This document shows positions 1 through 20,521 of a stretch of 22,292 bases of DNA, piece by piece; within the stretch, counting starts at the first letter, position 1, and each line of letters opens with the position of its first letter. A program made the translations under genes and the position numbers. The DNA comes from Candidatus Heimdallarchaeota archaeon LC_3 (GTDB taxonomy: Archaea > Asgardarchaeota > Heimdallarchaeia > Hodarchaeales > LC-3): contig MDVS01000051.1 in assembly GCA_001940645.1 (NCBI GenBank), positions 1 through 22,292 of the forward strand. The letters run 5' to 3'. A model generated the notes under the pieces. That model was not told where the DNA came from and ran no database searches. It saw nothing but the letters and a program-made list of their open reading frames with translations.

Positions 1-877
1 GATCATAGTATTTTGGTAATTTAAACTTACTATTTATGATTCTTGACTCCAAATAGCCTATTCCAAAATATTTAGACTTATGTACATATACTCCAAGAGA
101 TGGATCGGTCGGATCACCTGTTTTTTCTAAGTTACGACCCGAATTGTAACTGAATAAAAAACGTGCATCCCAGATATCGACATTGTTATCGTAAAGCTGA
201 AATAGGTCACATTTCTGTTGTAATAATAGAAAATATTGTTTGATAGTATCAGGACCAAGATTTTTCAAGATTCGTAGATACTGAGTTTGTGAGGGTAAAT
301 GTTTATTCTCTACTCCACATTCTACTTGTAATTCTTCCCAATCTTCTAGAATATTTAAAAAACTTGAAAGAGTATTGATACCCAACCTTATTCGAACTAA
401 TTCCAGTCGAACAATATCTTCAACTTGACAATTCGTTGTAAAGATAGTAATACCTTGTAATTGTTGCCATGTGGTAAAAAAACTAAGATCAGCATCAAGG
501 AAAAGTTGATATAATGACCCCTGGTATCCAGAATTACTTTTTATTGCCTGTTGATCAACAAAAGGGATTGCAAAATCTTTTTTGAGCTTAGGATGGATAG
601 AATTGTAATGTCGATCATAGAAGGTTCGTTTCCGTCTTTCCTTTATGGAGTATTCTCTATTCTCAATAAATTCTATTAATAATCGTTGTTTATTCTTTAA
701 TCTCCGTTGTTTAGTCTTTCGTTTCTCTTCTGGAAATGGACGGTGAAAAAGATTTTGATATCGCTTTTTTCCTTCCTTTGTTCGACAATCAATGGTCTCA
801 TTGACCTGCAATCCAATAAAATCCAAAAGTATATATTGAACCAGTATCCGGATAGATGTGATGATTCTGTAGGGCAT
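1..877 (-). CDS. DDE-type transposase, partial (cut by window edge)
   Basis: This reading frame stays open from an ATG at 877 to the left edge (292 codons visible) and has no stop. The first ~110 residues are basic and Lys/Arg-rich, as in the DNA-binding part of many transposases. Residues ~230-280 contain DIWDARF, then GRN, then TGDPTDPS, then a Tyr/Gly-rich YFGIGYLES stretch. This resembles the region around the first catalytic Asp of IS4/IS1182-like DDE transposases, where a D-x-T/R-F strand is followed by a DPxxxxG...GY block; D234 or D237 would be the catalytic Asp. The second Asp and the Glu would lie outside the window, so intactness cannot be judged. The IS family is not assigned. It is co-directional with the main gene array and sits next to a hairpin and a broken ORF, which suits an insertion-prone boundary. 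Confidence 0.6.
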   Translation of the reverse strand, partial: MPYRIITSIRILVQYILLDFIGLQVNETIDCRTKEGKKRYQNLFHRPFPEEKRKTKQRRLKNKQRLLIEFIENREYSIKERRKRTFYDRHYNSIHPKLKKDFAIPFVDQQAIKSNSGYQGSLYQLFLDADLSFFTTWQQLQGITIFTTNCQVEDIVRLELVRIRLGINTLSSFLNILEDWEELQVECGVENKHLPSQTQYLRILKNLGPDTIKQYFLLLQQKCDLFQLYDNNVDIWDARFLFSYNSGRNLEKTGDPTDPSLGVYVHKSKYFGIGYLESRIINSKFKLPKYYD

Positions 878-1365: not shown

Positions 1366-2640
1366 CTAAAATTCAACATAGGATAAATTAGTACCTTTCC
1401 AATAGATAAATCTATCGGGATTTATTTCAATTAACGTTCGGCTAAAAATAGGATTAATCCTCCATTGAGAAGGAATAAAAAGATTATATTTCTTATATTT
1501 CTCGATATATTCTGGATATTTCTTTTGAAATAATCTTCGTATTTGTAACATTTTCAAACCAAAAAAGAAAATCATAATAATACTTGTTAGCCAGTTGTAT
1601 CCATAAACGCGAGCTTTTCCTTGAATCAATACACCACTACTCTTGTTTATAGATACAAGATTACGATTATCTATACAGACTGCGAGTTTTTTATTTTTTC
1701 GTAAATTTTTTATTTTTTTGCTTTTTATTGAAGTGGCTAAAAATACATGACGTCCATCAAAGACATATAGAATTGGGGTTACATGTGGTGCATTATTATC
1801 TGATAAGGTACCTACATAAGCCAAATGAGAAGAATTGAGTAAATTTTTAATCTTTTGAGGAATTGCTTTGCCACTAAGTGATCGAAGGTGTAAGATGTTC
1901 ACGCTAGCAATTATAAAAGAGATAATAAGGTAAGCACATAACCCAATAAAAAGATATATGTCATAATAAACTAACGGAAGTAAGAAAAATCCTGCAATTA
2001 GCGCTAAATAATGATACAAATCAGCTTTTTCTAACTCTTTGATATTGAAGGGAGAAAAATGTTTTTTTAATTTTTTATCATTTAGATATCTTGAAAGTCG
2101 TAAATTTCTTTTTAATTGTACAATCATTACATAAGATGACAACCCTAATCGATAACAGATATCAAAGACGATTAAAAATAGATACATTAGTACTAAGGGT
2201 GGTAACGTGGTAGTTTGAAATTCCCTTTCTAAAATATTTATAAAATTTTCTGTTCCTGGAATTGGGGATGCCAATAAAAAAACGTAAGTTATTGTGCTCA
2301 GAACTACACCAAAAACTATTGATGAAGGGTGAAATAAATCTTCTAAATATTGGACAAGAAATTTTTTATTAATGAGATTAATACTTTCAATTTCTACGTT
2401 ACGCATTTTTTGTGCGTAGCTGAATATTCCTAAGGTCCAGAGTGAAATACTTATTGCAGCGAATATTCCAGCTATTAAGAAATATAAAGGAATGTCATAT
2501 AAGAAATATAACCCAATTCCCCAAACAAGATATAAAATTGTCAATAGAAAAACATTTTTTGGAGATTTAAACCGACTAAAAGGCCAGATTCCTTGAAAAA
2601 TCTGTTCTTGTAAAAAAGTATAAGGTTTATGAGGTTGCAT
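1366..2640 (-). CDS. Multi-TM protein fused to an FMN-binding split-barrel (PNPOx-like) domain
   Basis: The product is about 424 residues from the ATG at 2640. A TTG at 2670 would add ten residues but has no ribosome site; AGGAG lies only 2 nt before the ATG, so neither start is well supported. The first ~260 residues hold about six hydrophobic segments (near residues 30-50, 55-75, 105-125, 145-165, 205-225 and 230-250). Residues ~265-415 resemble the pyridoxamine-phosphate-oxidase-like split barrel that binds FMN or F420: HLAYVGTLSDNNAPHVTPI, then DGRHVFLAT, then KKIKNLRKNKKLAVCID. In that family such proteins are flavin reductases, oxidases or flavin/haem-binding proteins; the substrate here cannot be told. 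It follows the NrfD operon after a T-tract, so it may be separately transcribed. A soluble split barrel fused to a large membrane domain is unusual and could be a membrane flavoprotein in the electron-transfer set. Confidence 0.7.
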   Translation of the reverse strand: MQPHKPYTFLQEQIFQGIWPFSRFKSPKNVFLLTILYLVWGIGLYFLYDIPLYFLIAGIFAAISISLWTLGIFSYAQKMRNVEIESINLINKKFLVQYLEDLFHPSSIVFGVVLSTITYVFLLASPIPGTENFINILEREFQTTTLPPLVLMYLFLIVFDICYRLGLSSYVMIVQLKRNLRLSRYLNDKKLKKHFSPFNIKELEKADLYHYLALIAGFFLLPLVYYDIYLFIGLCAYLIISFIIASVNILHLRSLSGKAIPQKIKNLLNSSHLAYVGTLSDNNAPHVTPILYVFDGRHVFLATSIKSKKIKNLRKNKKLAVCIDNRNLVSINKSSGVLIQGKARVYGYNWLTSIIMIFFFGLKMLQIRRLFQKKYPEYIEKYKKYNLFIPSQWRINPIFSRTLIEINPDRFIYWKGTNLSYVEF

Positions 2641-2751
2641 TTCTCCTAGCTTCAAGAATTCGTTCTCCAAGAGATTTATTAGTTTTTTCTAGTGTAATAG
2701 AATCAATAAAATCAATAACCTAAATATCTTAGGGAAATTTATAGAACGAAG

Positions 2752-7548: not shown

Positions 7549-8919
7549 TTAACTGGAATCTGTCTTACTTTCATCATCATTTATTTCAACAATTTTTCCC
7601 TTATTGTTAAAATAAATCTCTATACCACCGTTTGATTGTAATTTAAATGCAGCTATATTATCTTTTGAACTATCAGACTTACTTAGATAATTACTAATAT
7701 ATCTTTGAACGGGTGTACCACCCTGGTATGTTTTATTCCAAATATCATAATCACCTTGAATATCTTTTTTTGAAATAAGACCAACAATAATAGCTTCTAA
7801 TTCTTCATTATTACTTTTCGCTTTTAAATTGACCATAGAAAGAATTTCTTCTAACGTTATTTGTTTATGGATTGGAGTTGAACTTAATATGTTTTTCAAT
7901 AACCTAATCAAAGCATCTAGTCTGATTATTTCAGGATTTATTGATTTATCTTTTTTTAAATCAACACGATCACCAATAACTCTTTTGATTTCTTCCTTTT
8001 TCTTGCTTTCAACAAGTTTAAGAGTATCTTCTCTTTTTTGTTTGAGTTTTTCTTTTAATGAATCAATTTGAACATTAGGTTTTTTAATTGACAATTTAGG
8101 TAGTTCAATTGCTTCTCTTATTTTAATTGCTTTGAAATTCTCTTCATATTCAATTAACAAGTTCTCTTGAATTGAAGCTAATGTAATTCCAAAGAAAATA
8201 AAGATCAAAATTCCTACAATAAACCAAGAAACTGTGTCAATTGGATAGGATTGACCAAGATATTCAAAAGTATAGATAAGTATTTCTGATTCAGAATTAG
8301 TAGTTGCGGTAAAAGCTAGAGACCTTACTAATATCATCGGAAAAATAGTTATTAAAGATAAAAAACTTAAGATACGGAAATTTCGTAAGGAATTAAGAAG
8401 AAAGATCTCGAACCCTTTTTTATTAGTATTTCTCAAATCATAGGTAATTTCGAATCCCGTAAAATAACTTCCAGGTAAATAACCCACAATCATGCTATCC
8501 TTATTCAAAGGATATGTCTGTAAATTCATTTTTTTGTTGGTTTTTGAAATCATTTTTCCTAACATTTCAGTAGAAAGATCAGTTTCGACAAATAATGACT
8601 GAAAAAAGATTTCTTTCCATAAAAAAGATGAAAAATAGAGATAAATCAAAATTGTAAAAGAAGTAATCCAAAAAAATTCACTAGATTGTTTGATAATATA
8701 TAAATTGATCCATGAATTATCATAACTGATTAAATCTATAAGTAAAAGGAGAAAACCAAAGAAGACAGAATATAAAATAAAAATTATTTTATGTTTTGGT
8801 TCAATACCGACATCAAGAGACTTAGTTTTAAGATAGAGTATTAAATATGGTGAAATTATTAACAAAATTATTGAAATATTATATACCTGTATTAAGTGAG
8901 CCACAGCGGAAGAGATCAT
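7549..8919 (-). CDS. Unknown membrane protein with coiled coil and winged-helix tail, inside the tat operon
   Basis: I do not recognise this 456-residue protein as a named family. Residues 1-105 contain about three TM segments. Residues ~105-180 form a soluble loop with a YDLRNTNKKGFEIFLLNSL stretch. Residues ~183-260 contain two more TM segments around an outer loop (FTATTNSESE). A charged coiled coil (~265-315, KLKQKREDTLKLVESKKKEE) leads to a C-terminal domain (~320-430) with a helix-helix-wing pattern (PIHKQITLEEILSMVN, then IVGLISKKDIQGDYDIW), much like a PCI/winged-helix fold. The start is ATG with GAAGGAAA upstream. It lies 34 nt after tatA and 50 nt before tatC in one orientation, which makes a role in Tat assembly, substrate gating or Tat-linked signalling plausible; this is inference from position. 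Confidence 0.6.
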   Translation of the reverse strand: MISSAVAHLIQVYNISIILLIISPYLILYLKTKSLDVGIEPKHKIIFILYSVFFGFLLLLIDLISYDNSWINLYIIKQSSEFFWITSFTILIYLYFSSFLWKEIFFQSLFVETDLSTEMLGKMISKTNKKMNLQTYPLNKDSMIVGYLPGSYFTGFEITYDLRNTNKKGFEIFLLNSLRNFRILSFLSLITIFPMILVRSLAFTATTNSESEILIYTFEYLGQSYPIDTVSWFIVGILIFIFFGITLASIQENLLIEYEENFKAIKIREAIELPKLSIKKPNVQIDSLKEKLKQKREDTLKLVESKKKEEIKRVIGDRVDLKKDKSINPEIIRLDALIRLLKNILSSTPIHKQITLEEILSMVNLKAKSNNEELEAIIVGLISKKDIQGDYDIWNKTYQGGTPVQRYISNYLSKSDSSKDNIAAFKLQSNGGIEIYFNNKGKIVEINDDESKTDSS

Positions 8920-9506: not shown

Positions 9507-9791
9507 TTATTTTTCATGAGATTTTCTCAAAAATAATTCGTAAAATATCACTGAAAAATTGTAGATAACGTAAAGCGTAACGTATAACATTAAAGAAAGA
9601 AATAATATAAAGGCCAAATAGCCCAAAATTGTATAAAATAGTGTTTTAAGTGATTCGAAGAATGCGATAACAGTGAGTACACCAACAACATAAAGAGCTA
9701 CAATCTCCCAAGTAACTTCGAATTTATGTGTAGCGAATTTTGACGGAATATTTTCAAAAGATAATTCTGACACTTTTTCTGCCTTAGACAT
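9507..9791 (-). CDS. Two-TM mini-protein, paralogue of the gene at 19201-19452
   Basis: This 94-residue protein has a polar N-terminus (1-25) and two hydrophobic helices (~27-48 and ~53-82). It aligns along its length with the 83-residue protein at 19201-19452: FEVTWEIVALY against FKTTLEVVAIY, then FF-E/D-x-L, then LG-Y/F, then YVIYNFSVIF against YIIYNFYVFF. The function is unknown. The conserved acidic residue in FFES/FFDY within or near the membrane and the YNF motif at the end of helix 2 are the features to watch. ATG start with AGGTGAT 3-9 nt upstream. It appears monocistronic, with its own TATA-like box. It could be a small accessory subunit of a membrane redox complex; evidence for that is only its neighbourhood. 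Confidence 0.65.
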   Translation of the reverse strand: MSKAEKVSELSFENIPSKFATHKFEVTWEIVALYVVGVLTVIAFFESLKTLFYTILGYLAFILFLSLMLYVTLYVIYNFSVIFYELFLRKSHEK

Positions 9792-9940: not shown

Positions 9941-11671
9941 TCATAAATTTTTTTCATATATTACTTCTGCAAGTTCTTGAAATAATTTTTTAATATTTTT
10001 TCCCAATAGTGCTGAAGTTTCAAAATAGTATTCTATATTGTATTTCTTTCTGAAATCCCATATTTTATCTTGATTCATTATATTTGGAAGATCACTTTTT
10101 GATCCAACAAGAATCACAATTTGGTTTTTGTAATCCTCTTCAGGTATTAATCCAATCCAATATTCGAGATCATTAAAGGATTCTGATTCGTTCATTGAAA
10201 AAATAAGTGCTACACATTCTTTTCCAGTTAATTGTCCAGAATACAATTCTCTAAATAATTCTTGTCCCCCATAGTCATAAATGACCAGCTTTATTTCTTC
10301 ATATTCTTCTTTTGTTCTTTTAGGAACTTTAATATAGGATTCGTCCACCAAAATTCCTAATGTTACTCGAATTTGTGGATCCCACTTATCTGTTAAGTAT
10401 CTATTAACGATAGATGTCTTTCCTACACCTTTATTCCCTAAAAATGCTATATTAAAATTTTTTAATTTCATTAATTTATCTTTCTGGTCGCTGAAATAGA
10501 TTAATTCATCTTCATCAATTGAATCGTTAAAAATAGGAAGAAAATCATGTGAATGTTCCCAAATATCAAGAAAGTCAAATCTTTTAATTTTTGTAGCTGA
10601 TTCACTTTTTATATACAAAGTTTTGTCTAATAAACGTGTGGTTTGGGGGACCTCGAAAAATTCTTTTTCGTCAATTATGTACAATTTTGTAGAGAATCGT
10701 GTAACTACTCGAATTGATAATCTAGGGAAAGCATTTACTACTTGTTCTTTCAAATCTATACTTAATTGGTGAAAAATATTTAAAAATGATTTATCTACTA
10801 ACCATTTTATGTGAATTCCTGCAAAACATAATTTTATAGAATTTTTCAACTCGGAAATAACTATTTCCTTCCAATTTTTAAAATTATGATCAATTAAGAC
10901 AAAAAGTGAACTAAGAATTTCAGTAGCTTCTTGAGAATGGTTGAACACTAGAGAAGAAATATCTTCATAAACATTATAAGTTTTAGAAACTAAATCAGTA
11001 AATACATTTTGATCACTGGTTGTTGGAATCTCTAATATCTCTAATATACGTTTTAACCTTTCTTTTTTATCATCCAATTTATTTTTGAGGCTTTTTAAAC
11101 AGAACTCAACAATTTCATTCAAAGATAAACCTGAATAAAGTAAACTTTTTCCGCGAAAGGTTTTTGTTATTGCATTTTGGTATAATAAAGATTCACAAAT
11201 ATTTCTAATTTTTTCGTAAGAATACTCAGAAAAAGTCTTAATTAATTCATTTCTAGTAGCTGGGACTTTAACTAAATATTGATGGATTTTTTTTGCATCT
11301 TCATCAAAACCAAGGGATAAATAAATCTTGTTTTCACTTGCGGATAAAGAATTGCGTAAAGCATTACATTTAACTGATATTTCATGTTCATATCGTTCAA
11401 TACTATTCTTTAAAATTAACCCATCTGAAATATATTGTTTAGGTTTTAATCCTATTTGTTCAAGGAGCCCCCTTTTTTCTAAACCAATTAAAACTCCATA
11501 TAATTGATGTTTAGCTACATTTAGATAATCTTTCAATTTTTTTGTAGTCATTGGTTCTTCTGAATATAATAAAATAAATAAAATTTCACTTTCTATTTTT
11601 TTCAATCCAAAGCTTTCTAATTCTCGTAATAAGGATTTGTCTCCTTCATTTTTGATAACTTCTAAACTCAT
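9941..11671 (-). CDS. TrmB-like transcription regulator fused to a Ras-like small GTPase (copy 2)
   Basis: The product has about 576 residues from the ATG at 11671; an upstream TTG at 11716 with GGAG would add 15. Domains in order: a TrmB-type winged helix (~20-85, with LKDYLNVAKHQLYGVLIGLE as recognition region); a second winged helix (~130-190, VPATRNELIKTF...RGKSLLYSG); a coiled-coil linker (~195-215); a PLD-like TrmB sensor region (~260-355, KLYIIDEKEFFEVP); then a small GTPase (~405-576). The GTPase has P-loop GNKGVGKTS, switch I Thr in VTLGIL, DYGGQE (the catalytic Gln kept, as in Ras/Arf), GSKSD in place of NKxD, and ETSA. There is no prenylation box. A GTP-switched DNA-binding protein is inferred. 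It lies downstream of ccmAB, and its paralogue is at 13565-15304. Confidence 0.82.
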   Translation of the reverse strand: MSLEVIKNEGDKSLLRELESFGLKKIESEILFILLYSEEPMTTKKLKDYLNVAKHQLYGVLIGLEKRGLLEQIGLKPKQYISDGLILKNSIERYEHEISVKCNALRNSLSASENKIYLSLGFDEDAKKIHQYLVKVPATRNELIKTFSEYSYEKIRNICESLLYQNAITKTFRGKSLLYSGLSLNEIVEFCLKSLKNKLDDKKERLKRILEILEIPTTSDQNVFTDLVSKTYNVYEDISSLVFNHSQEATEILSSLFVLIDHNFKNWKEIVISELKNSIKLCFAGIHIKWLVDKSFLNIFHQLSIDLKEQVVNAFPRLSIRVVTRFSTKLYIIDEKEFFEVPQTTRLLDKTLYIKSESATKIKRFDFLDIWEHSHDFLPIFNDSIDEDELIYFSDQKDKLMKLKNFNIAFLGNKGVGKTSIVNRYLTDKWDPQIRVTLGILVDESYIKVPKRTKEEYEEIKLVIYDYGGQELFRELYSGQLTGKECVALIFSMNESESFNDLEYWIGLIPEEDYKNQIVILVGSKSDLPNIMNQDKIWDFRKKYNIEYYFETSALLGKNIKKLFQELAEVIYEKNL

Positions 11672-11957
11672 TTTTTTATTTATTCCTAAATTCTCACTAT
11701 AATTGTAAGTCAACAAGGATTTTCTCCAAAATTATTGAGTTATTACTGATTACGTTAAATTATCGACATTTAAAGGAAGTTTCAACTATTTCTTTTTTCT
11801 ATCAATTTAATATATGCATTATTTGTACATTTAAACCTTCTTATGCAATTTTGAGCCAAAATGAACCAGATGTAAAATAATTTTAATCAAATTGAACAAT
11901 TTTACACAGAAAATTAAAAAATGGAAGTCCACGTTTCGTGAAAAATCGTAAAAATAT
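11672..11957 (-). promoter_or_regulatory. Region between ccmB and the TrmB-Ras gene with TGTAAAAT inverted repeats
   Basis: TGTAAAAT (11871-11878) and ATTTTACA (11899-11906) form an inverted repeat about 200-235 nt upstream of the GTPase ATG. The longer word CAATTTTACACA (11897-11908) recurs exactly at 19603-19614, and its reverse, GTGTAAAAT, at 19762-19770. Dyads like this suit a dimeric winged-helix regulator such as TrmB. T6 on the minus strand (11916-11921) may end the ccmAB transcript. The binding role is inferred. Confidence 0.35.
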
Positions 11958-12659
11958 CTAATCTTTAATAACAGTTTCAATTGTAAGCATAGCAATCCAA
12001 AATAACATAAAAAAATGTAGAAAAAGTAATAGAAGATTAGAATCGGTAAGAGAAACTAATTCTCCTGTTATTGAATTTGAAATTAATATCACGGATATCA
12101 TAACTGAAGGAAGAATTAAGGGAAACATCAAAATTGGAACAACTAAGCTTTTTGATTTAGAATACATCGTTAATGAGGCAACAAGTGTTCCTACTATTGA
12201 ATAATCCATTGTCGATAGTACAAATACAATTAATACTATGACGAAAGATGATTTGAACGTCAACTCAAAAAATATTATATACAAGAATACGACAATTATC
12301 AAAATTGAAAATAGAAGAATTAAATTAAAAATCAATTTACCTAAAAAAATGGTTTGTGGTTTTACTGGAAAAGATCTTAAAGATGTCAAAAAAGCCCCAG
12401 ATTTTGTTTCTCTTCCAAATAACGATGAGTAACTAAGCATTCCAGCGAAAACAAAAATAATCCATAAAGACGCACTGATAACGTTTGCTCTCAAAGTTTC
12501 ATTTTCAAAACCAGTAATGTTGAGTGCTAAAGAGAAAATTAATACAGAAGCTATACTAAAAACGATCATCGAGAAAAATTCAAATTTATTACTAGATTCC
12601 AATAAAACATCTTTCCTAAAGATGATCCAAGCTTTATTTAAATCAGAAAGTAAGCTCAT
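11958..12659 (-). CDS. ccmB: Haem exporter ABC permease CcmB
   Basis: This 233-residue, six-TM protein has the CcmB layout: AWIIFRKDVLLE at the N-terminus, a RANVISASLWIIFVFAGML segment, FGRETKSGAFLTSLRSFPV with the E-x-x-x-G...L-x-x-x-P region that touches the ATPase, LGKLIFN, and LVVPILMFPLILP. With CcmA it forms the ABC part of cytochrome c maturation system I, which releases haem from CcmC onto the chaperone CcmE at the outer face. The ATG at 12659 lies 14 nt after the ccmA stop and is preferred over TTG at 12671. The partner genes ccmF, C, D and E lie 8 kb away in the same orientation, so the pathway is split in two loci. Confidence 0.83.
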   Translation of the reverse strand: MSLLSDLNKAWIIFRKDVLLESSNKFEFFSMIVFSIASVLIFSLALNITGFENETLRANVISASLWIIFVFAGMLSYSSLFGRETKSGAFLTSLRSFPVKPQTIFLGKLIFNLILLFSILIIVVFLYIIFFELTFKSSFVIVLIVFVLSTMDYSIVGTLVASLTMYSKSKSLVVPILMFPLILPSVMISVILISNSITGELVSLTDSNLLLLFLHFFMLFWIAMLTIETVIKD

Positions 12660-12673
12660 TAAACCAACCAAAC

Positions 12674-13426
12674 CTATGAATCTAGTATAATTGTTCTTAA
12701 GATTTTGCTTGACAGATTTTCTCTATTTAGATTTTGTATTAGCTTTCCTTTTTTAAGAACAAATACTTCCTTGCAAAGAGAAGAAACAAGATCAAGATTA
12801 TGACTTGCAATTATTATTGTAGACTTATCTTTAAGTTTTAATAACTCATCAACAAACGAAGAAATGTTTTTCGGATCCATACCTGAAAAGGGTTCATCTA
12901 AAAGTATCAATTTCGGTTTTATTAATAAAATTCTAAGAAAATCTACTTTTTTCCTCATTCCAGTTGATAATTCTTTAACTGGTCTTTCCAACCAATTTTC
13001 TACACCAAAATCCTTCGCTTTACTTAATATGTATTCTTGCAAGTCATTAATCATTAAATTTTTCCCTAAATCATACAATTTACTCCAAAATAACAGATTT
13101 TCGTATCCGGTTAATTCATCATATAAAAAAGAGTGATAAGAAAAGAGAACCATATTACTTCTTATATTTTCAGTATTTTTTTTAATATCTTTTCCAAAAA
13201 TTTCAATAAATCCAGTTGTTGGGGAAATTATTGTTCCTAATACATTTAATAATGTCGATTTTCCTGCACCGTTTGATCCAACTAATCCAGAAATTGTATT
13301 TTTCTCAATCTCTAAGGAAATATTCCTTAATGCCCACAGAAATCTATATCTTTTTCCCATATTATAAATTTTGATAGATTTATTTGTTTGTTCGTTTAGT
13401 ACGATTGTTTTAGTAATATTGTTCAA
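12674..13426 (-). CDS. ccmA: Haem exporter ABC ATPase CcmA
   Basis: The ABC ATPase has 250 residues. It shows Walker A GSNGAGKST (~50-58), a Q-loop region replaced by FSYHSFLYDELTGYENLLFW, signature LSTGM followed by RKKVDFLRILL, Walker B LILLDEPFSGMD and switch His in ASHNLD. The FLYDELTGYENLxFW stretch is typical of CcmA (FLYxxLTxxENLxFxxxL). It powers CcmB and release of holo-CcmE. The start is probably TTG at 13426: the next Met (about residue 23) would cut off the first beta strand (IKIYNMGKRY). It is directly followed by ccmB. It lies 138 nt downstream of a TrmB-Ras gene, so it may have its own promoter or be read through from the cytochrome b operon. Confidence 0.83.
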   Translation of the reverse strand: MNNITKTIVLNEQTNKSIKIYNMGKRYRFLWALRNISLEIEKNTISGLVGSNGAGKSTLLNVLGTIISPTTGFIEIFGKDIKKNTENIRSNMVLFSYHSFLYDELTGYENLLFWSKLYDLGKNLMINDLQEYILSKAKDFGVENWLERPVKELSTGMRKKVDFLRILLIKPKLILLDEPFSGMDPKNISSFVDELLKLKDKSTIIIASHNLDLVSSLCKEVFVLKKGKLIQNLNRENLSSKILRTIILDS

Positions 13427-13564
13427 AATATTTACTCAAAATCCTGATTTTAATATAAAATTAAATAGTTAAAGTCATTAAATGATTATTTATTAAGAAA
13501 TTATTTACAACTTTCCAAATAATCTCAGTTTCAAGATTATTAAAATTTTATTAAAAAATATTAT

Positions 13565-15304
13565 TTAGTTGAAAATTTCATTTTCGTGGATAGTGTAGCT
13601 GAGTTGTTCCGCAAGTTCTTCAAATACTTTATGGACATTTTTGCCATTTACTGCTGACGTTTCAAAATAATTTTCTATTCTATATTTTTTTCTGAAATCC
13701 CATAGTTGATCTTGATCAACTTTAATTGTTAAATCAGACTTGGTACCTATTAAAACTACTGATTTTTTATCAAGTTCTTCTTTACCAATTAAATCAATCC
13801 AAGATTCTAAATTATCAAGTGATTCGGGATCATTTAAAGAGAATATTAACCCTATGCCTCGCTTATCTTCTAATTGATTAACATATGCTTCTTTAAATAA
13901 TTGCTGACCACCAAAATCGAAAATCATTAATTTCATTTGTTCTATATTTGAGAATGATCTTTTGGGAAGTTTAATTAAAGTGTCATCCACTAATATTCCT
14001 AATGTATAATTTAAATTAGGATCAAATTTAGAAGTTAGGAACCTTTTAACTAAACTAGTTTTTCCTACTCCCTTATCTCCAAGTAAAGCAATATTTATAG
14101 TTGGTATTTGTTTAAATATTATATTTTGGCCCATAAAATAAATCAGTTTCTTCTCATCTAACATTTCACCAACTAATTGTTGGATGTCAGATGAATCTTC
14201 CCAGATTGTATCAAAATCTGCAATTTTTATGTCTGTATATTCATCATCAAAAACAAAAATTCCTTTTTCTAAATATGTTCCAGTAGATGAAATTTCTAAT
14301 ACTTCCTGATTATCAAAAATCATCATGGACGGCAGAGTTTTATTTGTTACCCTTAGTTGAAACTTATGTTTTAATTTTATGATTTTTTCAATCAGATCAT
14401 TTTCGAATTCTACAAATATTTTTAAAAAAGTTTTATCTACTAACCACTGGAATTTTTTTCCAGATTCTACAGATTCGATGGTTTTTTTTAATTCATTTTT
14501 CACGAATTTAGTCCAGTAAGAATAGTTTTCATCATTTTCAAGAAAAAGGGAGCTTTTTATATTGGTAGTCCTTATTAATGTTTGCGAGATTTTTTTGTTT
14601 ATTTCTTCATTTGAATTAAGTATTTGCGTCTCAATTTCACGATTACCAGACCTTTCATCTTTTCTGAATTCTATCAAATTAATTATATTTTCGACTCTGT
14701 TTTTCTTTTCACTTAATTCAATATTTAAAGAATCCATCTTGTTTTTCATTATTTCTTTCAGAGGTATTCCAATATATAAAATTGATTTTCCTTTAGAGGA
14801 AATTTTTCTGCTGTAATTTTTATTGATCAAAAAATCAGTAATATTTCGGGCTTTTTCATAAGTTAAAAAATCCATCTTCCTAATTAAATCATTTCTTGTA
14901 GCAGGATGATCTAATAAATATTCATGAACCCTTTTTTGATCCAAATCGAATCCTAATAATTGATAAAAACTTACTAAATTAGTATCACTTGTTTCTTTAA
15001 AAGCGTTCCGTTCATTCTCAATTTGTTGTTCAAGAAGAGTAATACTTTCATTAAAAGTTATTTGATCAGAAAAGAATTTCTTTGGTTTAAATGAAACTTG
15101 TTTAATTATTTTTTGTTTTTCAAGTTTAGAAAGAATAGTGTAAAGCTGGTGTTTTTGGAATTCAGTCATTTCAGCTAGTTCGTTACTCGTAAGAGTTTTT
15201 GTTGAATTTAATAATATAGATACAATTCGTGCTTCATCATTGGAAAGACCAAATGCTTCTAATTCTTTTATTAATTCAGCGCTTATTTCGAACAAGTATT
15301 TCAC
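13565..15304 (-). CDS. TrmB-like transcription regulator fused to a Ras-like small GTPase (copy 1), coupled to cytochrome b
   Basis: The product has 579 residues and the same order as copy 2: TrmB winged helix (~8-72, LSNDEARIVSILL...KHQLYTILSKLEKQ), second winged helix (~122-180, HPATRNDLIRKM...GKSILYIG), helical linker with coiled-coil character (~185-215), PLD-like sensor region (~265-345, SMMIFDNQEVLEIS) and GTPase (~400-579). GTPase motifs: GDKGVGKTS (409-417), TLGIL switch I, DFGGQQ (463-468), GTKSD (520-524), ETSA (548-551). The tail is soluble with no CaaX box. It starts with GTG at 15304, overlapping the cytochrome b stop as GTGA, so translation is probably coupled. That places a GTP-switched DNA-binding sensor in the same operon as two haem proteins; it may report redox or haem supply to ccmAB, located just downstream. 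Target sites are unknown. Confidence 0.85.
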   Translation of the reverse strand: MKYLFEISAELIKELEAFGLSNDEARIVSILLNSTKTLTSNELAEMTEFQKHQLYTILSKLEKQKIIKQVSFKPKKFFSDQITFNESITLLEQQIENERNAFKETSDTNLVSFYQLLGFDLDQKRVHEYLLDHPATRNDLIRKMDFLTYEKARNITDFLINKNYSRKISSKGKSILYIGIPLKEIMKNKMDSLNIELSEKKNRVENIINLIEFRKDERSGNREIETQILNSNEEINKKISQTLIRTTNIKSSLFLENDENYSYWTKFVKNELKKTIESVESGKKFQWLVDKTFLKIFVEFENDLIEKIIKLKHKFQLRVTNKTLPSMMIFDNQEVLEISSTGTYLEKGIFVFDDEYTDIKIADFDTIWEDSSDIQQLVGEMLDEKKLIYFMGQNIIFKQIPTINIALLGDKGVGKTSLVKRFLTSKFDPNLNYTLGILVDDTLIKLPKRSFSNIEQMKLMIFDFGGQQLFKEAYVNQLEDKRGIGLIFSLNDPESLDNLESWIDLIGKEELDKKSVVLIGTKSDLTIKVDQDQLWDFRKKYRIENYFETSAVNGKNVHKVFEELAEQLSYTIHENEIFN

Positions 15305-16032
15305 AACACTTCCTTATTAATGTTCTCCTGAATATCTTCTTTACCAGTGATCATAGCTTTTAATCTAGCAACATTTTGAGGAATAAGAGCAAAATAAACA
15401 TGGAAAATTGTAGTCAAAGTGAAGAAAACGAAAAGTAAGAAATGGAAGAATCTAACACTAATACCCAATAATCCTAGAAATGGTAACATCAGGTCATTAA
15501 GGCCAACGAAGAACGACATTATTCCTGTACTACCTGGTTGTTGAGCTTCAGCTAAAGCAATACCAGTAGCTCCCATTAATAGCATAGCAATGAGATCAGA
15601 AATAGCTAAAAATTTCTGAGCTGGATGATACTTTCTGTGATACATACCTGTTTCTGCATTATAAAAATCGTAATGAGGATAATTATCGTCGCTTATAAGA
15701 TTTAATGTACAAAGAACTATCAATATTAAATCTCTAACATCGCTTGGAGTAGGAATAACATCTTTGATATGTCCTTCAAGGGCTAACAATAATGGTTGAT
15801 AAACTAAATCCCAAAATAAGATGAAAATTCCTAACATGATATGTAAAGTACGTATAAAGGACATATCACCGAAGATAATTTCTCTTGTATGAATCTGCCA
15901 TCCTGTTGAAATGAATAATGCCATTGAGGCAGCATGTATCCAGTGATAAAATCTGCCTGCTGATCCATATCTTCGAACGTTATAAATTATTATAATATCA
16001 GTTAATTCTGCTTTTTCAGAGGAAACTGTCAT
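15301..16032 (-). CDS. Membrane di-haem cytochrome b (b561 / FdhI / HyaC-like)
   Basis: The product has 243 residues with four main TM helices. Ligand-type His occur in AGRFYHWIHAASM (helix 1), RTLHIMLGIF (helix 2), near YHRKYHPAQKF (loop before helix 3) and RFFHFLLFVFFTLTTIFHVYF (helix 4). This matches the cytochrome b561-like gamma subunits of formate dehydrogenase and Ni-Fe hydrogenase, which bind two haems b and exchange electrons with quinone. Here no hydrogenase or formate dehydrogenase is adjacent; the upstream partner is an EB_dh-like haem protein, so the pair may carry electrons from quinol to the outer face or the reverse. ATG follows the upstream stop by 9 nt, with GGAGG/GGTG ribosome sites. 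The 3' end overlaps the TrmB-Ras gene by 4 nt (GTGA). Confidence 0.85.
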   Translation of the reverse strand: MTVSSEKAELTDIIIIYNVRRYGSAGRFYHWIHAASMALFISTGWQIHTREIIFGDMSFIRTLHIMLGIFILFWDLVYQPLLLALEGHIKDVIPTPSDVRDLILIVLCTLNLISDDNYPHYDFYNAETGMYHRKYHPAQKFLAISDLIAMLLMGATGIALAEAQQPGSTGIMSFFVGLNDLMLPFLGLLGISVRFFHFLLFVFFTLTTIFHVYFALIPQNVARLKAMITGKEDIQENINKEVL

Positions 16033-16041
16033 TTAATTCAC

Positions 16042-17694
16042 CTAATCCTCCTTAGAATCAGGCTTGGATCTTCTTTCACGAATAACTTCTTTAAGTGATG
16101 GTTGATTAGGTAAGCGATCGGTATAAACAATTCTTTTTTCATGTTTAATAGGACGTGATATAACACGTAATGCTCCATGAATAAGAACTGAAAATACCAC
16201 TAGAGTGAATGAGAATACAAAAACAATATCAGAAAGTTCAGCGGGATTTGAACTCGGTGTATCAGGAGGAGGAGTTACTGTTCCTCCTGCAGCTGAAAGA
16301 TCAGTTAAAATCCAAGTATAGACTGTATGACCATTAAAATGAGATTTAGAGGAAGCAAATTGAACATTAATAATTGTAGAATCATTAAATATAACATCGT
16401 AACCATTAACATCCTTAGTATCCAAAGGTCGAATAATCTCAACGTAAGTTAGCGATCCTTTGGCAAAAATTTCATATAATAGATCATTCCTAAAATCACT
16501 TTTTGGATGTTCATCAGCTCCAGTAAAGTAACCATCATCTAAGTATTCTCTGTCAATTGTAGTACTATTACCAAACGTCCATCCATCATGACCTTCCAGC
16601 ATATGATTCTCATCTCCAGAAATAGCATCAAATTCGACTGAAATCCAATTATATGAGGAATCATAAGCAAGTAAAACATATAAAAAGAAACCATTTTGTG
16701 ATGACTTTACAAATCCCTCTGATCCCAATTCAGAAATAAAAAGTGGATTAACATCTTCCCAAATTTCATCAATTTTAGAATCACTAATAGAGATTACTTC
16801 ATTGATAAACCATGAAATAATATCAGCATTAGGTCCAATTCCTGTATTGTTTACTTCAAAGTTGAATTTAACAGTAGCTTCATTACTATTTGAATCGTAG
16901 GCAGTAACTAATAAACTTGCTTGGCCATTGCTCAAGCCAAAGGTACTTAGTTCTGAATAATATAAGCTAGTTGAACTGTTTAAAGTCATTTCAATATCTC
17001 CTGTTTCATTGAAATTGAACTTTACTCCTGCAAGATAATCATCTGAAACATCAACTTCAACAAGATATTGACCACCAATTTCAGAGCCATTAGAAAAAAC
17101 TTCATCATTGAATAATATGCTATTAATGGTTGGTGGCTCGCTATCTGGGGCTTGAATAACCTCTACATTAAAAATTTTATTAATAAAGTTAAAACCCTCA
17201 TCTAAAACACTATTAACAGCATGAGCCTTTAATGTATAATTACCTATGGTGTCTGGAGCCTTAAGAGTAACTATAGCTACATTATTTGTGCCACCTGATG
17301 AGTTAATTGGAATATCTGGAGCTGATCTGGCTTCATCACCAAAAAGAAAATCTGAATTATTTTCATAATCCTCAATAAAACCGATCGCTACTTCTTCATC
17401 TTGTGCTTCGATAAATCCAGAAATACTAAAGGTAACAATATAATCTAAATTAGTGAAAACCTGATTCGAAGCCGTTACTGTTATTGAACCATTCCCAAGA
17501 TTGTTTACTAATGGAGGGGAATGACAAAAACAGGAATCAGCAATGTCACCACTGATTTCACGCCATTTTGCAAAACTTGGGGAATCATTTAATCCTCCTA
17601 AAATTGCATTATCAGTTATTTCTGAATTATTATAAAGCATTATAGAGGTAAAGAAAACAAATACCAATATTAGACTATTTTTTCTTAAATTCAC
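16042..17694 (-). CDS. Surface haem protein: C-x-C-H motif, beta-sandwich, EB_dh-like haem b domain, C-terminal anchor
   Basis: The product has 550 residues. Signal peptide ~5-22. The N-terminal module (~35-180) holds SCFCHS (C55, C57, H58), a possible contracted haem c site, followed by a beta-rich fold. Residues ~188-283 are Ig-like. Residues ~290-465 resemble the ethylbenzene-dehydrogenase gamma/DMSO-reductase haem-binding domain: KIDEIWEDV, then FFLYVLLAYD, then MLEGHDGWTFG, then VEIIRPLDTKD and VQFASSKSHFNGHTVYTW. M365 is a candidate haem ligand, by analogy with that family. A Pro/Thr linker and TM helix (~488-510) anchor it, with a basic cytoplasmic tail. Many N-glycosylation sequons. 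It starts with GTG, with GGTGA 6 nt upstream, which supports it. It heads the operon with cytochrome b and TrmB-Ras. It is probably an outer-face electron carrier. Confidence 0.75.
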   Translation of the reverse strand: MNLRKNSLILVFVFFTSIMLYNNSEITDNAILGGLNDSPSFAKWREISGDIADSCFCHSPPLVNNLGNGSITVTASNQVFTNLDYIVTFSISGFIEAQDEEVAIGFIEDYENNSDFLFGDEARSAPDIPINSSGGTNNVAIVTLKAPDTIGNYTLKAHAVNSVLDEGFNFINKIFNVEVIQAPDSEPPTINSILFNDEVFSNGSEIGGQYLVEVDVSDDYLAGVKFNFNETGDIEMTLNSSTSLYYSELSTFGLSNGQASLLVTAYDSNSNEATVKFNFEVNNTGIGPNADIISWFINEVISISDSKIDEIWEDVNPLFISELGSEGFVKSSQNGFFLYVLLAYDSSYNWISVEFDAISGDENHMLEGHDGWTFGNSTTIDREYLDDGYFTGADEHPKSDFRNDLLYEIFAKGSLTYVEIIRPLDTKDVNGYDVIFNDSTIINVQFASSKSHFNGHTVYTWILTDLSAAGGTVTPPPDTPSSNPAELSDIVFVFSFTLVVFSVLIHGALRVISRPIKHEKRIVYTDRLPNQPSLKEVIRERRSKPDSKED

Positions 17695-17976: not shown

Positions 17977-19002
17977 TTATTTAATTGTAACAAACTGTTT
18001 TTTCCTTATTTCCATAAATGTAACAGATCCTTTCTCATCAAATTCTGAATTATAGATAAAAAGTTGTTTTTCTGGAGGTAATACTTTGCTAACAATTGCT
18101 GCAAGATATTTGATCCATAAACACTTTGTTAAAGGAAGGTATGGATGAACAGCATCTGCAAAACTACATTCAATTGATAATTCAAATTTATTTTCAGATA
18201 CCGGTTTAAGAATAACTTTCTCACCTATTCGCTCTAAATGTTCTATTCCCAAATTTAATGCACTTTTTATTGTATTTTCGTCTTTTTTTAGTGCGAGTTT
18301 GTCTAATAAGTGAAAACGATCTAAAATTTCACCAGTATACTCATCAGCTAATTGATCAAGTAAATTTGAGCTACCTCCAAGGATATTTGAACTTGCACGT
18401 TCTAATCCATGATAAACACTGTGTAAAATCCATGGGACAGCAATCAATGATTCACCTGAGTCAACAGTTGGTAAATCTTGAAAGATTGAATTTGTTTTGT
18501 AATTGATTTTGCTTGAAACTGGTTTATCAATTATATTAGTTACTGTGAGTTCTAAGTTTTTACTTAGCCTTTCAGTGAATTTGTTAAAAATAGATTTTTC
18601 TAATAGTGATTTGACACTATTGATTTCAGTTGTAAAATTATTAAACATTTCTTCAATTAGGTTTGATGAAATCGCATAATTTTTAGGTAAAAACAGTATT
18701 CCTATTGTGTACAGATTAGCTTCATCTCTAGGAGTTCCTATATCAACATCTAGCAAAAAAAAAGAATAAGTGTATGCAACCCAATCATTTGTGTTTATCA
18801 CTGGAAAAGGACCAAATAAACCAGTAAAAAATTGATCGCCTGCTCCAACCATCATTCCTAACGGAGTTGAGTACCTCAAAAGAAAAGTTTCTATCTTTGA
18901 ATCATCTACAAAAGGTAATTTTGTACTCACAAGTGGAGTTAGACCTTTTGTTGCGACTGCAACAAAACTAAGACCATATTGCAACTTCTCTGAATTATTC
19001 AT
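17977..19002 (-). CDS. Longin/Roadblock-like protein with uncharacterised C-terminal domain
   Basis: The product has 341 residues, with ATG at 19002 and no TM segments. The first ~125 residues look like an Asgard-type longin-like domain: LSFVAVATKGLTPLVSTKLPF, GAGDQFFTGLFGPFP, then WVAYTYSFFLLDVDIGTPRDEANLYTIGILFLP. Such alpha-beta domains are common partners of small GTPases. The middle (~125-240) is helical. The last ~95 residues (LNLGIEHLERIGEKV...CSFADAVHPYLPLTKCLWIKYLAAIV...GSVTFMEIR) recall archaeal V4R-like or small-ligand sensor domains with a conserved Cys-x(n)-HP...Cys pattern (C278, H285, C293 approx). Neither assignment is certain. It sits directly upstream of the operon with a TrmB-Ras GTPase, so it could act as partner or effector of those GTPases. 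Confidence 0.55.
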   Translation of the reverse strand: MNNSEKLQYGLSFVAVATKGLTPLVSTKLPFVDDSKIETFLLRYSTPLGMMVGAGDQFFTGLFGPFPVINTNDWVAYTYSFFLLDVDIGTPRDEANLYTIGILFLPKNYAISSNLIEEMFNNFTTEINSVKSLLEKSIFNKFTERLSKNLELTVTNIIDKPVSSKINYKTNSIFQDLPTVDSGESLIAVPWILHSVYHGLERASSNILGGSSNLLDQLADEYTGEILDRFHLLDKLALKKDENTIKSALNLGIEHLERIGEKVILKPVSENKFELSIECSFADAVHPYLPLTKCLWIKYLAAIVSKVLPPEKQLFIYNSEFDEKGSVTFMEIRKKQFVTIK

Positions 19003-19200: not shown

Positions 19201-19452
19201 CTACGCTAACACAGTTTTGAAAAAAACGTAGAAATTATAGATAATGTAGCCAACCATTGCAAAGATTATTGTAAAGAATGCTAATAGGGATACAAAACCC
19301 AACATAGAATATAGAGCTACGTTTAGATAATCAAAAAATGTTAAAAATGTAATAAATGCAGCAAAATAAATTGCTACTACTTCTAACGTAGTTTTAAATT
19401 GCAGACCCTGATGTTTTGTTAGTACTTCTGGTACGTTTGGAGCTTCAGCCAT
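19201..19452 (-). CDS. Two-TM mini-protein, paralogue of the gene at 9507-9791
   Basis: The product has 83 residues from the ATG at 19452. An in-frame GTG at 19461 is less likely, since AGGTG sits 6-7 nt before the ATG. There is a polar N-terminus (~1-20), then two hydrophobic helices (~22-42 and ~47-78). It shares E-x-VA-x-Y, FF-[DE]-x-L, LG and Y-x-IYNF with its paralogue 9.5 kb away. The function is unknown. It has very AT-rich upstream DNA with several TATA-like words, so transcription may be strong, as for an abundant small membrane protein. It is preceded by a ~0.7 kb gene-free stretch and followed by a T-rich end, so it is probably monocistronic. Confidence 0.65.
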   Translation of the reverse strand: MAEAPNVPEVLTKHQGLQFKTTLEVVAIYFAAFITFLTFFDYLNVALYSMLGFVSLLAFFTIIFAMVGYIIYNFYVFFKTVLA

Positions 19453-20134
19453 TATGAACACCTACTTATTGTTAATTATTATATTTTATACAAGTTATAT
19501 ATATTTCTAACATTTTTAAACATAAGTTATAAAATATTAATCATTTAACAACAAAAAAGCCCAACAATAAGAATTCCAAATCCATTTTCAACCAATTATC
19601 ATCAATTTTACACAATCAGCTCCAAAACTTAACAAATTTCACCAATATTAAACAATTTTTGTTAATTCATAACCTCCATTCTTAAGCTTAATTTTCATTC
19701 TTCTAATTATTATCAATTATATTTCAATACATAGTATAAATCAATAAATTTTATTGATTTAGTGTAAAATTTTTAATGAAAAATTATTTTTACAAGATAA
19801 ATCTCTTTTAATATAAATTTAATAAGAAAATTTTGCAAAATTTCTTGTTTATTGGTAAAAATAGCTGTTTCATTACTATTATTAGTGATTATATTAATAT
19901 CACTCAATAATCAGCCAATTTCCACATTTACAATAAGTTATAAAGTAGCTACAATTTAAAATAACTTCATATAATGATAATATATATATAAAATGTGAAT
20001 AAAGGAGATAGCTGCGTTTTTACCAAGTCTTTTTCATTTGGAAAATTTTCGGATTCAAATCGTTCAAATATTGTTAAACCTACATGAATAACCAAAAAGA
20101 GGAAGAAAAAACGGTTCTCTAAACAGGTAATATT
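19453..20134. other. Gene-free AT-rich stretch with palindromes
   Basis: About 680 nt with no convincing gene on either strand. It holds a 12-bp perfect palindrome with a 1-nt centre (TAAATCAATAAA, 19737-19748, with its reverse complement at 19750-19761), a near-palindrome AAGAAAATTTTGCAAAATTTCTT (~19826-19848), AGTGAT/ATCACT arms around 19885-19905, and a TATATATATA run (~19981-19990). CAATTTTACACA (19603-19614) and GTGTAAAAT (19762-19770) match words upstream of the second TrmB-Ras gene. T6 at 20106-20111 (minus strand) probably ends the ccm transcript. A regulatory region or small RNA is possible; nothing is proven. Confidence 0.4.
20106..20111 (-). terminator. Candidate T-tract end of the ccmFCDE transcript
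   Basis: A T6 run on the coding strand lies about 24 nt past the ccmE stop codon, followed by further pyrimidine-rich sequence. It is a weak but well-placed archaeal terminator. Confidence 0.35.
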
Positions 20135-20521
20135 CTAGTTTTGATACTTACTTGGACATTTAGTAGAAATTTGTGTAGCTTTTATAACCCAACCTTCAGG
20201 AGATACGTCTATTGTTCCTTCAACTAATACTCTTTTACCAGTCTCGAATCCTGATGGAATAGGTACATTCTCGTATTGAACAATAACAGAATAGTTCATA
20301 CCTTCCCAATCTCTTATCAAAAAATTCTCATTAGTAATATTATATACATCTCCCACTAGTTGAACGTTTTTCCCTATTAAATCATTGGGATTATTCTTTT
20401 CAAACATTTCATATACTGAATATTGTGGAATAAGCGAATTAAATAGAATGAAAGCTGTTATAATTAATGCTCCTGCTAATGCACCAGTAATACCAATCAA
20501 TTTGGGGGTAGAGATAGCCAT
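20135..20521 (-). CDS. ccmE: Cytochrome c maturation haem chaperone CcmE, Cys type (CPSKY)
   Basis: The product has 128 residues: one N-terminal TM anchor (~8-28) and an OB-fold beta domain (~45-120, with GKNVQLVGDVYNIT, IVQYENVPIP, KRVLVEGTIDVSPEGWVIKATQI) facing outside. In classical CcmE the haem is held covalently by a His in H-x-x-x-Y near the end. Here the end reads STKCPSKYQ, that is C122-x-x-x-Y126, the Cys variant known from archaea and some sulfate reducers and linked to a reduced maturation system lacking CcmH. The chain stops two residues after the Tyr. The ATG has a weak GGAA site and lies 18 nt after ccmD. CcmE receives haem from CcmC with help from CcmABD and hands it to CcmF. 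Confidence 0.9.
   Translation of the reverse strand: MAISTPKLIGITGALAGALIITAFILFNSLIPQYSVYEMFEKNNPNDLIGKNVQLVGDVYNITNENFLIRDWEGMNYSVIVQYENVPIPSGFETGKRVLVEGTIDVSPEGWVIKATQISTKCPSKYQN

Follow-up and report, generated by a model that had tools for sequence, protein, structure and literature searches.

What would a complete Ras-like GTPase be doing at the end of a putative DNA-binding regulator's chain, beside genes for haem export? The question is raised by a 22292-nucleotide stretch of DNA from Candidatus Heimdallarchaeota archaeon LC_3 (assembly GCA_001940645.1, contig MDVS01000051.1), which is referred to here as the window. An earlier note made from the letters of this DNA had described two proteins, one on either side of ccmAB, that each join a TrmB-type regulator to a GTPase; both were borne out, at coordinates 9941–11671 and 13565–15304. 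The reading favoured here, with a probability of about 0.5, is that each protein acts as a one-chain GTP-switched transcription regulator of the local cytochrome c and respiration genes. A wider proposal is put forward more tentatively, at somewhat less than even odds: that a Ras/Rab-type GTPase, sharing one chain with two winged helices and the sensor scaffold of TrmB, would switch DNA binding according to whether it carries GTP or GDP, and so set cytochrome c and respiratory expression in Asgard archaea.

Domain architecture

Both proteins have the same domain order: the chain opens with a winged helix of the TrmB type, followed by another winged helix, a probable PLD-like fold of the TrmBL2 type and a Ras/Rab-like GTPase. 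They are paralogues with 41% identity. The genes and their domains are as follows.

9941..11671, minus strand: TrmB–GTPase fusion protein 1 (P0001), 576 amino acids
11423..11647, minus strand: protein 1 winged helix 1, TrmB-type, residues 9–83 (PF01978, 39.0 bits, and model)
11123..11341, minus strand: protein 1 winged helix 2, probable internal duplicate, residues 111–183 (model, profile match to winged helix 1, charge)
10544..10990, minus strand: protein 1 PLD-like TrmBL2-type domain, residues 228–376 (family profile, 5bqt match, model)
9947..10465, minus strand: protein 1 Ras/Rab-like GTPase, residues 403–575 (G1–G5 complete)
13565..15304, minus strand: TrmB–GTPase fusion protein 2 (P0002), 579 amino acids
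15065..15280, minus strand: protein 2 winged helix 1, residues 9–80 (PF01978, 29.4 bits, and model)
14768..14977, minus strand: protein 2 winged helix 2, residues 110–179 (model and family profile)
14186..14632, minus strand: protein 2 PLD-like domain, residues 225–373 (Foldseek match between the complete model and TrmBL2 5bpd_D, model, family profile)
13589..14107, minus strand: protein 2 Ras/Rab-like GTPase, residues 400–572

The earlier note had proposed structure prediction of both proteins and a search of each domain against hidden Markov model libraries. Prediction was performed on the full-length chains and gave models in which the N-terminal winged helices are present, and the library search found the PF01978 winged helix and the GTPase in both proteins. 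Every part of the note's domain reading was supported, the PLD-like and second winged-helix assignments on weaker evidence. Chimaeric assembly as the source of the fusion was ruled out because the same fusion is present in 11 other database proteins.

Family and distribution

Homologues were searched for among 5.8 billion proteins; the best 7998 and 7997 candidates were scored, and distant members may be missed. Beyond the window proteins, 11 further members were found (P0003–P0010 and P0019–P0021), of which P0006 has a chain cut off after the P-loop. P0003, P0005, P0020 and P0021 come from Candidatus Hodarchaeales, an order in the kingdom Promethearchaeati. A tree calculated from 12 rows, with P0006 excluded, contained three well-supported clades (the protein 1 type, the protein 2 type and a third formed by P0007–P0010), by which proteins 1 and 2 are judged to be paralogues of an old duplication.

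A profile search of genome contigs with the family alignment gave 55 pattern-matching stretches and no confirmed member, a result that may reflect the patterns chosen and is not evidence of absence. Scans of genome contigs with the iron–sulfur (FeS) protein of the window and of viral contigs gave no confirmed match, and a plasmid search returned three records, all matching the GTPase part alone.

The GTPase domain

Both proteins show the Ras superfamily fold together with motifs G1–G5. The G1 motif GxKxVGKT, the switch I Thr, D-x-[GA]-G-Q, [TSA]KxD and ETS are kept in 12/12 full-length rows, and conservation within the family is highest in the GTPase (mean identity 0.58, with 50 of 170 columns invariant in the 12 rows, compared with 14/75 in winged helix 1, 16/73 in winged helix 2 and 14/149 in the PLD-like domain). 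No row departs from the catalytic Gln or from the switch I Thr; an active enzyme is therefore expected from the sequence, and the fusion proteins are predicted to bind and hydrolyse GTP. The position of Ras Gly12 is occupied by Lys in all 13 rows. Rheb has Arg at this position and is a slow GTPase; by this parallel, slow intrinsic hydrolysis assisted by an outside GTPase-activating protein (GAP) is plausible for the fusions. The chains end in EKNL and EIFN. Neither has a C-terminal Cys, so the prenylation site of Rab proteins is missing. The linker that precedes the GTPase is poorly conserved (identity 0.34), and its predicted local distance difference test (pLDDT) value is below 50 at residues 380–398 of protein 2.

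The putative DNA-binding and sensor regions

The TrmB winged-helix family PF01978 scored 39.0 bits in protein 1 and 29.4 bits in protein 2, both above the curated cut-off of 25.6, and was matched in 12/12 family rows at E values of up to 1 (best 4.8e-14). In all 12 rows winged helix 2 carries a net positive charge (+2 to +6), and Y152, K154, R156, K170, G174 and K175 of its recognition helix and wing are invariant. Searched against the PDB, its sequence gave no significant match (best E 0.31). When its profile was aligned with that of winged helix 1, 70 columns fell in register with a score of 22.2; 100 column-shuffled controls scored 11.5 ± 2.5 (maximum 19.0), and scores of 8.9–13.2 were obtained in six comparisons that paired one of the winged helices with a different region of the chain. 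The hhalign probability was just 11.5%, with E 0.0026 for a single comparison. Winged helix 2 may thus be regarded, with moderate certainty, as an internal duplicate of winged helix 1. The winged-helix sequences and models mark the proteins as putative DNA-binding regulators.

For the PLD-like region, the family profile matched TrmBL2 entries and nothing else (E 0.011–0.012). In the PDB, TrmBL2 (5bqt) is the entry whose match extends over the winged helix as well as the PLD-like part, with a whole-sequence E of 7.1e-05 and values of 8.6 and 0.2 for single stretches. Foldseek aligned the whole protein 2 model to TrmBL2 5bpd_D with E 9.9e-12, but with a root-mean-square deviation of 15.1 and a TMt of 0.41. 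Whole-model fold searches gave almost only GTPases among the matches listed (up to 50 each); TrmBL2 appeared once among them, at rank 32, and not among the VIA rows listed, which makes for a weak test. A probable PLD-like fold in both proteins is thus supported indirectly.

PF11495, which we take to be the sugar-binding TrmB model, was matched by neither window protein at E up to 0.1; raising the limit to 1 for P0001 did not bring it up either, and for rows other than P0001 the scan listed 25 of 53 families. The GTPase presumably occupies the place where TrmB has its sugar-binding part. Proteins 1 and 2 had no match in PHROGs. A conserved Cys/His haem or redox sensor was ruled out, because neither residue occurs in an invariant or nearly invariant column of the 12 rows.

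Linkage to haem-export genes

The features that lie between and immediately beside the two fusion genes are as follows.

11672..11957, no strand: gap of 286 bp upstream of the protein 1 gene, candidate operator/promoter region
11958..12671, minus strand: CcmB haem-exporter membrane subunit (PF03379, E 2.8e-15)
12674..13426, minus strand: ABC ATPase, CcmA by position, 2 bp from ccmB (PF00005, E 2.8e-27)
15301..16032, minus strand: cytochrome b561-type membrane protein (PF01292, E 2e-09)

In the direction of transcription ccmB is followed after 286 bp by the protein 1 gene, and the protein 2 gene shares 4 bp at its start with the cytochrome b561-like gene upstream. In other genomes, linkage was inferred from fusion and CcmB homologues listed on contigs of equal size. 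The size column is an incomplete record: window protein 1 itself is listed under a 2966-base contig and not under 22292. All four orthologues of protein 1 (61–67% identity) share their listed contig size with a CcmB homologue, and five of the 30 CcmB rows (4294; 29572 twice; 6180; 5998 bases) match the contigs of P0006, P0003, P0005 and P0004. Among the protein 2 type, one of three members (P0019, 29572 bases) matches a CcmB row; the 29572-base listing includes the protein 1 type, the protein 2 type and CcmB together. This suggests a conserved linkage of the protein 1 type with ccmB. The connection to haem export drawn in the earlier note is supported for protein 1 (4/4 orthologues) and once for the protein 2 type (1/3), and is not supported for the third clade (0/4).

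Proposed mechanism and alternatives

On the favoured reading, a TrmB/TrmBL2 scaffold of winged helix, long helix and PLD-like domain would have gained a second winged helix, and a Ras/Rab-like GTPase would have been added behind the PLD-like domain. A dimer would contact DNA through four winged helices. Its GTP/GDP state may be set by a separate GAP or guanine-nucleotide exchange factor, or by a signal received through the PLD-like domain, and the nucleotide state would alter the dimer and hence its grip on DNA. The likely targets would be nearby genes for cytochrome c maturation, Tat and respiration. Dimerization, DNA binding, its control by the nucleotide state, ligand sensing by the PLD-like region and the choice of the ccm genes as targets are all proposals.

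Several observations weigh against this scheme. Winged helix 1 is near neutral (net charge −1 to +3 in the 12 rows) and its best PDB sequence match is a winged helix of the Lrs14-like kind (E 6.9e-06). In NCBIfam the N-terminal part matched Sta1 and Lrs14 regulators in 5/5 members and TrmB in only 2/5; for the first member, the matches listed together with a cut-off scored far below it. The predicted template-modelling scores (pTM) were just 0.52 for protein 1 and 0.39 for protein 2, so the relative placement of the domains is not fixed by the models. A search for inverted and direct repeats, made without a shuffled control, gave no convincing operator in six intergenic gaps, the arms being mostly AT-rich and imperfect; 12-base perfect arms at 19737–19761 were set aside as an operator, adjoining neither fusion gene. 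The linkage to CcmB rests on equal listed contig sizes, the contigs themselves not having been read, and no CcmB row matches P0020 (8790 bases), P0021 (7384) or the third clade (5527, 19240, 4254 and 6347). Conversely, three other close CcmB rows (71–100% identity; contigs of 5594, 3337 and 1546 bases) and the more distant ones (52–57% identity, longest contig 130353 bases) match no fusion row.

The proteins might instead resemble TrmBL2 in binding DNA constitutively, as locus or chromatin factors, with the GTP form of the GTPase recruiting a partner (roadblock, longin, another GTPase regulator or RNA polymerase) and no switching of DNA binding. This is possible, though unlikely: the 5bqt match takes in winged helix and PLD-like part alike, TrmBL2 is titled an archaeal chromatin protein, and the GTPase hangs on the poorly conserved, low-confidence linker described above, yet its presence in every full-length row and its leading conservation fit a role in cis as well. 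It is improbable that the winged helices serve protein–protein contacts without binding DNA, the proteins being signalling GTPases for respiratory membrane machinery encoded nearby. Membrane or exported proteins are frequent among the neighbours (CcmB, TatC, TatA, NrfD, cytochrome b561). In the part of the MK-D1 study available 26 of 74 GTPase sequences carry roadblock or longin, 35 are single-domain, a figure legend gives others various domains of unknown function, and membrane-associated roles are spoken of (PMC10933270), which also tells against gene control. Against a signalling role, the two window proteins have no C-terminal Cys and no longin or roadblock Pfam match, and tandem winged helices, the second of them basic, with a TrmBL2-like PLD domain are the make-up of a regulator. 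Least probable is a GTP-switched DNA-binding regulator of remote genes whose adjacency to ccm is incidental or a matter of operon sharing. The 4-bp overlap of the protein 2 gene and the third-clade members without a CcmB contig match would agree with it; the shared contig sizes of all four protein 1 orthologues would not.

Neighbouring genes

Every listed open reading frame (ORF) of the window longer than 90 amino acids lies on the minus strand. A protein at the upstream window edge matches CcmF_C below its cut-off. A cytochrome c assembly (CcmC-type) protein, CcmE and an 86-residue small membrane protein lie upstream of a 341-residue protein, after which the order in the direction of transcription is a 550-residue protein, the cytochrome b561-type protein, protein 2, the ABC ATPase, CcmB and protein 1. 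A 94-residue small membrane protein, TatA, a 456-residue protein, TatC, a DOMON protein, the FeS protein and NrfD follow.

16042..17694, minus strand: 550-residue protein, exported-looking by eye

The 341-residue protein (17977–19002, minus strand) had no Pfam or PHROG match, and a PDB search gave a single match at chance level (E 0.48). Judged by eye, the first half is longin-like and the second V4R/TRAPPC3-type-like; if so composed, the protein could regulate the GTPases encoded next to it. The small membrane proteins at 9507–9791, directly downstream of fusion protein 1, and 19201–19461 (both minus strand) form a pair of paralogues, with 32% identity across 74 residues (E 1e-13) and no convincing family match. 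The CcmE-like protein (20135–20521, minus strand) has CPSKY, of the form CxxxY, close to its end, which is presumably the archaeal CcmE variant with Cys replacing His. The 456-residue protein between TatA and TatC (7549–8919, minus strand) has a marginal C-terminal PCI-domain match (22.2 against a cut-off of 22). A 434-residue protein (1366–2670, minus strand) joins a DUF7530 region to a pyridoxamine-phosphate-oxidase-like domain, and an ORF that leaves the window edge (2–877, minus strand) is transposase-like by eye and has no Pfam match.

Relation to known systems

TrmB and TrmBL2 are regulators of archaea, in the Thermococcales. The fusions share with them a TrmB-type winged helix, a helix and a probable PLD-like domain in the same N-to-C order. 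They differ in having another winged helix interposed and, on the C-terminal side of the PLD-like part, a Ras-like GTPase. The GTP-responsive regulators known to us, such as CodY, sense GTP and are not Ras-type switches. A TrmB-family thiol-based regulator has been described in Haloferax volcanii, presumably OxsR. It shares the PF01978 winged helix, whereas in the available part of its description (PMC9426492) it has a single winged helix and relies on thiol sensing; in the fusion family no Cys is invariant across the 12 rows. The complete Rab-like fold and motifs liken the GTPase part to Asgard Rab/Ras-like GTPases. It differs in its fusion to a regulator of the TrmB type, which the part of the MK-D1 study available does not name as a partner (PMC10933270), in the missing C-terminal Cys and in the Lys at the Gly12 position.

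The bacterial Group 3 MglA proteins offer a related idea: in the part of the source consulted (PMC4316618) this small GTPase is suggested to act with a winged-helix protein in transcription. There the GTPase and the receiver/winged-helix protein are products of separate genes, whereas here both are in one chain on a TrmB-type scaffold. The idea of tying a GTPase to gene control has thus been published before, for a pair of genes, and the novelty lies in fusing it to TrmB within one chain. No TrmB–GTPase fusion was found in the open-licence literature as judged by titles and the starts of abstracts; body text, supplements or other papers could hold one.

If the fusion proteins truly bind DNA under GTP control, they would represent a new way of gene control. 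Asgard archaea, relatives of the ancestors of eukaryotes and placed near the eukaryote root, have many Ras-like GTPases, which raises the question of the job these had before eukaryotic membrane traffic. A GTPase in-chain with a DNA-binding regulator would, if confirmed, give one of these Asgard switches a definite output, namely gene control.

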